From contig PBTE01000178.1 of NCBI GenBank assembly GCA_002726515.1, positions 1 to 64,000 on the forward strand: a stretch of DNA of 64,000 nt. Reading direction: 5' to 3'. Position 1 is the stretch's first letter. Every line of letters begins with the position of its first letter. Below are positions 39,913 through 44,503 of this stretch, in pieces. The notes beneath the pieces were generated by a model, which saw nothing but the letters and a program-made list of their open reading frames with translations, was not told the origin of the DNA and did not search any database. Source of the stretch: Planctomycetaceae bacterium. GTDB lineage: Bacteria > Planctomycetota > Planctomycetia > Pirellulales > Pirellulaceae. A program made the position numbers and the translations under genes.

Positions 39913-39965
<53 letters not shown>

Positions 39966-39986
<21 letters not shown>

Positions 39987-40694: not shown

Positions 40695-41016
40695 TTTTTT
40701 GATGGCGCGCGTTGGTTGCGCGCTGACATCATTTGCGTGACAGGTACAGTGGTTTTCATCAGGTCGGTGAAACATTTTCCTGCGCGTCGCAGTGGTGCGC
40801 CGTTAAACGTTGGACGCAAAAGTGAAAGGAGTAGAACTTATTTTTTGATGGCGCCCGCGTGATGGGCGGTGACATCATTTGCGCGACAGGTGCTGTGTTT
40901 TTCACCAGGTTGGTGAAACACGTTCCTGCGTGTCGCGGTGGTGCGCCGTTAAACGTTGGACGCAAGAGTGACAAGAATAACAACTTTGGTGATGGCGCTG
41001 GTGCCACTGTGTGGTG
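40695..41016. repeat. 146-bp tandem repeat, two copies plus truncated third, hairpin-forming
   Basis: Copy 1 40695-40840, copy 2 40841-40984, third copy only its first ~30 nt. Anchor TTTTTTGATGGCGC recurs at 40695 and 40841; GCGCCGTTAAACGTTGGACGCA recurs at 40797 and 40943 (offset 146). Within each copy TTTGATGGCGC can pair with GCGCCGTTAAA (11 bp, two G-U), and an inner arm pairs GTGTTT..CACCA with TGGTG-AAACAC around a GGT loop (perfect apart from a TT bulge in copy 2, weaker in copy 1). A small 5' hairpin keeps pairing despite sequence change: 709G-719C in copy 1 is 855C-865G in copy 2. Lies just upstream of the PEP-CTERM gene; could be a structured leader, a DNA hairpin element, or attC-like. 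Confidence 0.75.
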
Positions 41017-41041
41017 GTGCCGAGTCATCGAACGTACTTAC

Positions 41042-41060
41042 GCGATTCCGTGGGAATCGC
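41042..41060. promoter_or_regulatory. Perfect 8-bp hairpin upstream of PEP-CTERM gene
   Basis: GCGATTCC (41042-41049), loop GTG, GGAATCGC (41053-41060): a fully complementary 8-bp stem with minimal loop about 67 nt before the start codon. Not followed by T residues, so a leader or operator element is more likely than a terminator. Confidence 0.5.
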
Positions 41061-41126: not shown

Positions 41127-41798
41127 ATGATGGCACGCTTGACTAACAACACTTTGGCATTGGTTATTGGAATTTCTCTCGCTTTGATTTCCTCTTCGCT
41201 CTGCGTCGCCGATACGATCCACATCGAATTCACCGGTGTCGACATTGCTTATAATGGAACAGACATTACCGACGCCGACCCAGCTTTAAATGACCCCGAC
41301 CCGTTGTCCACTGTTGTACTTTCGGTCGACGACGTAACGACTGGGCCGATTCTAACGAGCGACATTACGCACGACTTGTTGATTCCCGGAGTCGCAGGGA
41401 TTCCCGTCACTGGTGGTCATGTGACAAGCGCTGGTGGGGGCACGTTAGACATCGGCCTTGGCACCGGTAACTACCTGAATATGAACTTGGCGACCGTCGA
41501 CGTTAATTTCATCAACATTATTCCCGGCGCAGTGACGTTCGCCTTCGCTGGATCCGTCGCTAGCGTGACTGGCCAGAGCCTGCCGTCTGGGTTGGAAATT
41601 GGATCTGACGTGACTGTGTCGATTTCAAGCCAAGTGGATCCCGCGTCGCTCACCGATGATGGAGCAGGTATCGTCACAGGTTTTACATCTGCCGGAACGG
41701 GTGAAGTCGGTGGTATTGCTGTTCCCGAACCGACCAGTATCGCTTTGCTACTGCTGGCCATCGCTGGTACGTGCAGCCTGACCGGTCGCCAGAAGTGA
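41127..41798 (+). CDS. PEP-CTERM sorting-domain protein
   Basis: 223 residues from ATG 41127; ATG 41130 is equally likely since GAGGAG (41118-41123) is then 6 nt away. Signal peptide MARLTNNTLALVIGISLALISSSLCVA. The mature part is Asp/Thr/Gly-rich, beta-strand-like and low in charge (VDIAYNGTDITDADPALN; GGGTLDIGLGTGNYLNM), similar to structural exported proteins. The C-terminus is a PEP-CTERM tripartite signal: VPEPTS, a hydrophobic helix IALLLLAIAG, and a short basic tail TGRQK, recognised and cleaved by an exosortase. No exosortase gene is in the window, so it must be elsewhere. The last codons are the first unit of a downstream tandem repeat. Function unknown; surface/extracellular matrix likely. 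Confidence 0.9.
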   Translation: MMARLTNNTLALVIGISLALISSSLCVADTIHIEFTGVDIAYNGTDITDADPALNDPDPLSTVVLSVDDVTTGPILTSDITHDLLIPGVAGIPVTGGHVTSAGGGTLDIGLGTGNYLNMNLATVDVNFINIIPGAVTFAFAGSVASVTGQSLPSGLEIGSDVTVSISSQVDPASLTDDGAGIVTGFTSAGTGEVGGIAVPEPTSIALLLLAIAGTCSLTGRQK

Positions 41799-41930
41799 AC
41801 TGCGCTATAGGTGCGCGCGCGCCCGACCGATCGAAAAATGTGATTTGTGACATACGTGCTACCTGACCGATCGAAAGAAGTAAACTGTGACATACGTGCT
41901 ACCTGACCGATCGAAAAATGTGATCTGCGA
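41776..41930. repeat. 40-bp tandem repeats derived from the end of the PEP-CTERM gene
   Basis: Units start at 41821, 41861 and 41901 with exact 40-bp period, core CTGACCGATCGAAAGAAGT followed by a TGTGACATACGTGCT block; the last unit is cut at about 41930. The coding end of the gene (41776-41805, encoding LTGRQK and the stop) reads CCTGACCGGTCGCCAGAAGT and is clearly the same motif, 45 bp before unit 1. The repeats therefore duplicate, outside the gene, the codons of its basic tail. Confidence 0.85.
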
Positions 41931-41966
41931 CAGCTGATTTTAGCGTTAATTTATTGTGCCATGCTG

Positions 41967-42121: not shown

Positions 42122-42175
42122 AGGAGAGGGGGTTCTTTCCCCCACTCTTTAGTGGGGGGGAAAGAACCCCCTCCT
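42122..42175. repeat. Long near-perfect inverted repeat ahead of a small gene
   Basis: Left arm 42122-42146 (AGGAGAGGGGGTTCTTTCCC and on to CCACT) and right arm 42151-42175 are complementary over about 23 bp, differing only by small bulges, with a CTTT loop. It stands 10 nt before the AAGGAG ribosome site of the gene at 42197. There is no T-run after it. Possible mRNA 5' stabiliser, translation control hairpin or cruciform. Confidence 0.8.
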
Positions 42176-42892: not shown

Positions 42893-44503
42893 TTGGCTGT
42901 CGTCGTTTTGCTTGCCTGGTTACAAACAGTCCCGGCAGCGCCCGATGTGGCGGTGGTCTGTCCCCGCGAGTTCCGTTCCGCGTTGGAACCCTGGGTAGCA
43001 CACCGCACCGGCCAGGGACACCAGTTGGAGTTTGTATCCAGCCAAGGCTCAGCCGACCAGATCCGGGCGCGACTTCTCAAATTGGCCCGGACCGGTTCCC
43101 TGCGGTTCATTGTGCTCGTCGGCGACGCCGAGCCGGCAGCCGACAAAAGTGCCGCGATCCAAGCCCGCTGTGTACCCACCCACAAGGCGCCCGCAAAGGT
43201 CAACGTGCGTTGGGGATCAGAGCCCGAACTCGGAACCGATAATTGGTATGCCGATCTGGATGACGACTGGCTGCCCGACGTGGCAATCGGCCGCATTACG
43301 GCCGATACGGAGACGGAACTTGAGCAGGTGGTTGCCAAGACCCTGGCATACGAGCGGTCACCCGACATGGGACATTGGCGACGCAAAATCCATTTTGTTG
43401 CCGGTGTGGGAGGTTTTGGACTGCTCGCTGACAAGCTGTTGGAAACGGTCGCCAAGCGTTTCATCACCGAAGGGCTTCCGGCGACTTTTGAAAGCAGCAT
43501 GACCTATGCCAGTTGGCGGAGCGTTTATTGCCCGAGCCCGCTTGATTTCCAACGTGAAACGTTGAACCGACTGAACAGCGGCTGTTTCGCCTGGATCTAC
43601 ATGGGGCACGGGCACCGCGACCGATTGGATGCCATCCACACGCCCTGGGGATCCGCACCCGTTCTGGAGCTGCAGAACATCGGACAGCTCAACAATTCTC
43701 AACAGGTTCCCATCGCCATCTTTTTTTCCTGTTATGCCGGTGCGTTCGACCAGGAAACGGACTGTCTGGCCGAAGAAATGCTCACGCACCAGGGAGCACC
43801 CGTGGCAGTCATCTGTGGATCTCGAGTAACGATGCCTTACGCGATGACCGTCTACGGGATCTCGTTGTTGAACGAAATCTTCCGGCAGCAGCGTCCGACG
43901 CTGGGAGAGATCCTGCTCCACAGCAAGCGGCAGCTCGGGACGGACCGGGAAGATGAGCAGAGAAAACTTCTGGACTCACTGGCAACAAGCCTCAGTCCTC
44001 ATTCAGACCTGTCGGCCGAACGGTTGGAACATGTGCAACTGTTCAACCTGCTGGGGGACCCATTGCTGCGGTTGCGTTATCCACAAACGATTGTGGTACA
44101 GGCCCCACGACATGCAGAAACAGGAAAGACCATCGAAGTTTCCGGCCAGGCTCCCCTGGGGGGAATTTTGACGGTGGAACTGGCCTGCCGGCGCGATCGC
44201 TTGAAATTCGTGCCCGCCGCACGGCGACCGCGGGGAGGCTCGGCGCCCGATTGGCAGGCAATGAACACGACTTACCGACGGGCGAATGACCATGTCTGGG
44301 CCAGCGAAACTTGTCATGTCCAGCGGGGACCGTTTCGTATCAAGATCGCAGTTCCCGGCGAGGCACAAGGTCCCAGTCATGTACGCTGTTACCTGGCAGG
44401 ACCAACGGCCTTTGCAATCGGAGCAGCTGACGTGGATGTGCAGCGGGCCGGTGACAGACCGTCGCTTGCCGCCCAACCGGACAACAAGCCCGCACCACGG
44501 TGA
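42893..44503 (+). CDS. Gingipain-like C25 cysteine peptidase
   Basis: 536 residues starting at TTG, supported by AAGGAG 5 nt upstream and a short signal peptide (VVVLLAWLQTVPAA). The caspase-like fold of peptidase family C25 is visible: a repeated alpha/beta pattern with RFIVLVGDAEPAAD near 71-84, LPDVAIGRITADTETELEQVV near 127-147, then the catalytic dyad H239 in WIYMGHGHRD and C280 in AIFFSCYAGAFDQ. A C-terminal Ig-like domain follows (about 400-525), as in gingipains. Likely an exported endopeptidase acting on proteins at the cell surface or outside. No type IX sorting C-terminus is visible. Single gene. Confidence 0.88.
   Translation: MAVVVLLAWLQTVPAAPDVAVVCPREFRSALEPWVAHRTGQGHQLEFVSSQGSADQIRARLLKLARTGSLRFIVLVGDAEPAADKSAAIQARCVPTHKAPAKVNVRWGSEPELGTDNWYADLDDDWLPDVAIGRITADTETELEQVVAKTLAYERSPDMGHWRRKIHFVAGVGGFGLLADKLLETVAKRFITEGLPATFESSMTYASWRSVYCPSPLDFQRETLNRLNSGCFAWIYMGHGHRDRLDAIHTPWGSAPVLELQNIGQLNNSQQVPIAIFFSCYAGAFDQETDCLAEEMLTHQGAPVAVICGSRVTMPYAMTVYGISLLNEIFRQQRPTLGEILLHSKRQLGTDREDEQRKLLDSLATSLSPHSDLSAERLEHVQLFNLLGDPLLRLRYPQTIVVQAPRHAETGKTIEVSGQAPLGGILTVELACRRDRLKFVPAARRPRGGSAPDWQAMNTTYRRANDHVWASETCHVQRGPFRIKIAVPGEAQGPSHVRCYLAGPTAFAIGAADVDVQRAGDRPSLAAQPDNKPAPR

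Follow-up and report, generated by a model that had tools for sequence, protein, structure and literature searches.

The locus at 40695-41016 of the window (the whole stretch of 64,000 nucleotides of planctomycete DNA that was analysed) raises the question whether a tandem repeat with hairpin-forming units has been selected as structured RNA or is a palindrome that was duplicated next to a gene.

Architecture and position of the repeat

TRF returned a period of 146 and 1.9 copies over 40695-40971, and sequence comparison bears out the two full copies and the broken third at 40695-41016 that an earlier note on this DNA had described. Copy 1 (40695-40840) and copy 2 (40841-40986), both of 146 bp on the + strand, differ at 26 of 146 positions (82% identity) with zero indels. 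The third copy (40987-41020, + strand) has a degenerate start, TGATGGCGC, at ~40994, a spacing of 144, beyond which the similarity is gone; a short hairpin, GGTGCCAC/GTGGTGCC, follows. A few bases 5' of copy 1 also resemble the repeat. On the + strand, both full copies share an invariant 3' block, GCGCCGTTAAACGTTGGACGCAA (40797-40819 and 40943-40965), and their stem arms match those quoted in the earlier note.

The repeat does lie, as had been stated, between a tRNA-Gly gene and a PEP-CTERM gene, the tRNA gene (39914-39986, minus strand) being located ~700 bp from it. The PEP-CTERM gene (41127-41798, + strand, with its start at 41127 or 41130) encodes a sorting-domain protein of 223 aa with a signal-peptide-like start that scores above the cut-off of NCBIfam TIGR02595. 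The repeat is positioned 5' of this gene and is co-directional with it. Between the two, an 8-bp perfect hairpin, GCGATTCC-GTG-GGAATCGC (41042-41060, + strand), was identified from sequence and fold; it lacks a T run. At and after the PEP-CTERM stop, 40-bp tandem repeats (41777-41941) comprise three good copies and one weak copy. Further 3' of the gene, small ORFs gave nothing significant in Pfam, and a peptidase C25 (gingipain/PorU-like) protein encoded at 42893-44503 occurs in almost every genome sampled from the family.

Two simple accounts of the repeat were rejected. A period of 146, which 3 does not divide, is at odds with a coding explanation, and the overlapping ORFs have no Pfam match. 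A sigma-54 promoter (TGGCGC...TTGC, copy 1) has the wrong spacing and is not kept in copy 2.

Predicted fold and its strength

On the + strand, the two copies share a consensus fold that is predicted to be a three-way junction. Its outer stem pairs 40699-40708 with 40797-40806 in copy 1 and 40845-40854 with 40943-40952 in copy 2, and gives zero covariation because the 5' arm is identical in both copies. The remaining helices, likewise on the + strand, are a small 5' hairpin with several pairing registers (40709-40723 and 40855-40869) and a long, interrupted main inner hairpin arm (40728-40796 and 40874-40942), which is the most reproducible portion of the fold. All 40 of the 40 consensus pairs are standard in both copies, a figure that is circular when taken alone because the structure was derived from both.

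A compensatory base-pair change in the small 5' hairpin had been put forward as a sign of selection for structure. The exchange itself, G40709-C40719 to C40855-G40865, is present in the sequence, and the 7-nt loop indeed differs between the copies. In the register of this exchange, 40705-40723 is a GC pair whose counterpart in copy 2, 40851-40869, is GG, such that one pair is compensated and one is lost. Moreover, the GCGCGC stem has three possible registers: 40709 is partnered by 40721 in the minimum-energy fold of copy 1 and by 40723 in the consensus, which pairs 40709-40712 with 40720-40723. Over the whole consensus fold there are 2 two-sided pair changes, against a mean of 1.0-1.5 under random substitution (P 0.25-0.46). 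Because it is register-dependent and the count lies within chance, the single compensatory pair cannot carry the selection claim; partial support for that claim comes from a shared + strand fold that is kept better than random substitution predicts, which is compatible with selection for structure. The additional proposal that the hairpin and the outer stem are mutually exclusive and could switch does not follow, since in the alternative register 40709-40712/40720-40723 the hairpin can coexist with the outer stem; the predicted three-way junction houses both helices, so a switch is unneeded.

The consensus energy of -47.05 kcal/mol was compared with three null models. Placing the same substitutions at random gave -31.7 +/- 4.5 (+ strand, P 0.001), keeping their sites and changing their identity gave -37.1 (P 0.005), and shuffling the alignment columns gave -27.3, corresponding on the + strand to a z of about -5 (-4.9 to -5.3). 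For folds predicted from single copies, 3 of the 41 copy 1 pairs are lost in copy 2 versus 7.4 expected (P 0.0085), and the fold of copy 2 loses 9 pairs in copy 1, which is at chance level. Both random and site-fixed substitutions thus lose more of the shared fold than is observed, and a purely neutral point-mutation history is therefore disfavoured (P 0.001 and 0.005, respectively, for n=2 copies at a locus picked post hoc).

Compared with shuffled sequence, the complete 146-nt unit of copy 1 has an unremarkable fold energy (z -0.7) and that of copy 2 a good one (z -2.9), and the 110-nt cores reach z -2.4 (copy 1) and -4.4 (copy 2). The objection, anticipated in the earlier note, that folding might be no better than that of shuffled sequence hence applies to the full copy 1 unit, and neither to copy 2 nor to the cores. 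A composition-corrected 110-nt scan of the window ranks copy 2 among the top 0.2% and copy 1 among the top 2.5%. No fold in the window is stronger (z about -6) than that of an unrelated inverted repeat at 42126-42173 (23-bp, 91% complementary, 2-nt gap), for which Rfam gave sub-threshold, chance-type matches only.

The - strand is weaker than the + strand in every test and still beats column shuffles (z -3.7 to -3.9), as both strands of palindromic DNA are expected to do. In the inner arms, G-U juxtapositions outnumber A-C juxtapositions by 6 to 2 in copy 1 and by 4 to 0 in copy 2. The stronger folding of the + strand, together with this G-U excess, hints at RNA.

As a control, every tandem array with a period of at least 60 was evaluated by the column-shuffle test in a 1.86-Mb sample that includes the window and covers about one third of the genome. 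The 11 other array rows, some of them overlapping, gave z values of -2.1 to +2.4, versus -4.9 here, making the repeat at 40695-41016 the strongest two-copy fold among 12 long-period array rows. Such long-period arrays are no rarity in the sampled genome; the present one folds unusually well.

The energies relative to the mutation nulls (P 0.001-0.005), this first rank among the arrays and the co-directional position 5' of the PEP-CTERM gene all argue for a selected structured RNA, either a tandem cis-regulatory leader of that gene or a duplicated small RNA gene, in which each copy would form a three-way junction or a long hairpin on the + strand. We consider this a possible reading, somewhat short of an even chance. 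Weighing against it, the copies are predicted to cross-pair or refold once flanks or the full leader are included; in this context the common fold is not dominant and no single fold prevails. In addition, promoter and terminator matches around the repeat do not rise above shuffled expectation.

Search for relatives

A covariance model, R1, was built from the two copies; with n=2 sequences, it could miss distant relatives. Across >700 genomes, in overlapping sets from the family (241), the order (396) and the phylum (392), R1 recovered only its own locus, save two weak matches, in G103 (in a coding region) and G601, whose E values of 0.0017 and 0.003 per genome are chance-level because such values are expected across that many genomes. 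The earlier note had proposed just such an Infernal search and had held that a lack of homologous hairpins elsewhere would speak against its reading; none was found in the family, order and phylum genomes searched. These searches likewise returned no homologues with compensatory changes, so covariation, which a structured RNA would call for, is unsupplied.

Within its own genome, R1 detected one locus plus a single 21-bit partial match. There are about two dozen PEP-CTERM matches in this genome, and the repeat accompanies one only, the other PEP-CTERM genes being without it. The adjacent PEP-CTERM protein has 1 relative detected in the family sample (G015, 35% identity), and R1 found no match in the ~170 bp examined upstream of that homologue, a further point against a selected leader. 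This PEP-CTERM protein and the protein encoded by the upstream neighbour are both rare within the family. Related loci checked via neighbouring genes gave no R1 match either.

Known families offer no counterpart. At the Rfam 15 gathering threshold, tRNA alone is reached in the window, and the repeat matches nothing even at E up to 5. This agrees with the earlier remark that no known RNA family is recognised, and it also counts against the structured-RNA reading.

DNA BLAST against the own genome and 98 relatives gave, besides the locus, only chance matches of 17-38 bp. Exact-pattern scans of genome contigs and viral contigs produced one chance-expected 20-mer, in Muribaculaceae, at a site where the R1 match is weak and spans 58 bases. 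Plasmid and phage collections contained no match. These results bear on the suggestion that the repeat is what remains of a mobile element or one of its ends, such as a REP/MITE-like sequence or an IS200/IS605-like hairpin end. A palindromic, intergenic, tandem unit is what such an element might leave behind, but a second genomic location and dispersed copies are absent and the viral, plasmid and phage collections are without a match, which renders this origin quite unlikely.

Integron attC-like recombination sites were considered as well, given that both copies carry, at their conserved 3' end, GTTAAAC, which fits GTTRRRY, and GTTGGAC. The 5' end, however, has no matching RYYYAAC, and the integron integrase model TIGR02249 is not exceeded at its cut-off in the genome (~95% complete). 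The attC interpretation is refuted on these tested features and we assign it a negligible probability. Tyrosine-recombinase-type matches to the integrase model, below the cut-off, occur at G000:C208:10133-10951 (L063, L064) and G000:C230:11799-12596 (L062, L065).

Origin of the repeat and comparison with known systems

The reading that we favour, at about an even chance, is a lineage-specific tandem duplication of an imperfect palindromic intergenic unit of ~146 bp, upstream of a PEP-CTERM gene that is itself lineage-specific. Long-period arrays occur at several other places in the 1.86-Mb sample, a 40-bp array abuts the same gene on its downstream side, the repeat itself occupies a single locus in the genome and none in the family, order and phylum genomes searched, covariation counts lie within chance, and both strands outdo column shuffles in the manner of palindromic DNA; each of these observations supports this reading. 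Palindromes promote replication slippage and unequal exchange, and the duplication probably arose via one of these. The copies would then have diverged with foldability kept, through either weak selection on a transcribed leader or the correction of the quasi-palindrome by template switching, which is known as a mutational mechanism. The retained fold, moderately above the neutral prediction, fits both alike, given two copies of a locus chosen as structured-looking.

The analysis demonstrates the palindrome, its duplication and its ability to fold, and we infer transcription, origin and effect. If the repeat is transcribed, the 5' leader of the PEP-CTERM mRNA would carry its + strand hairpins, whose influence on stability or translation would be generic at most; a dedicated switch or RNA family is not implied. 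A more ambitious version, in which a new lineage-restricted tandem leader RNA controls the PEP-CTERM surface protein and each 146-nt unit is a regulatory three-way-junction domain, appears improbable. If true, it would mean that a PEP-CTERM gene is controlled at the RNA level; a full-text literature search joining planctomycetes, PEP-CTERM and small RNA found no paper. Evidence for the repeat working as RNA is no more than suggestive. As the searches brought up no homologues and no known family, the most economical description is a lineage-specific duplicated palindrome before a lineage-specific gene, possibly a structured leader RNA. As a single-locus duplicated palindrome, the repeat is instructive mainly in showing why a claim of selection on structure needs more than one compensatory pair between two copies.

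Among known systems, REP/MITE repeats are similarly palindromic, intergenic and duplicated; in contrast to these, the present repeat is undispersed, at a single locus, and no transposase or RAYT link was seen. Type III toxin-antitoxin arrays (ToxI, TenpI, CptI) likewise place tandem RNA-like units 5' of a gene. Their RNA repeat unit measures roughly 36-45 nt, whereas the unit described here is ~4 times longer (146), and the gene found downstream of it codes for a PEP-CTERM protein instead of a ToxN-like nuclease. A passage of PMC2864571 names a Rhodopirellula-1 RNA candidate, with no Rfam accession alongside. Tandem cis-regulatory leader RNAs, such as tandem glnA or pan motif RNAs (PMC2864571), resemble the repeat in consisting of structured tandem units 5' of a co-directional gene; the repeat differs from them in showing no phylogenetic conservation, no Rfam match and no regulated pathway common to other genes.
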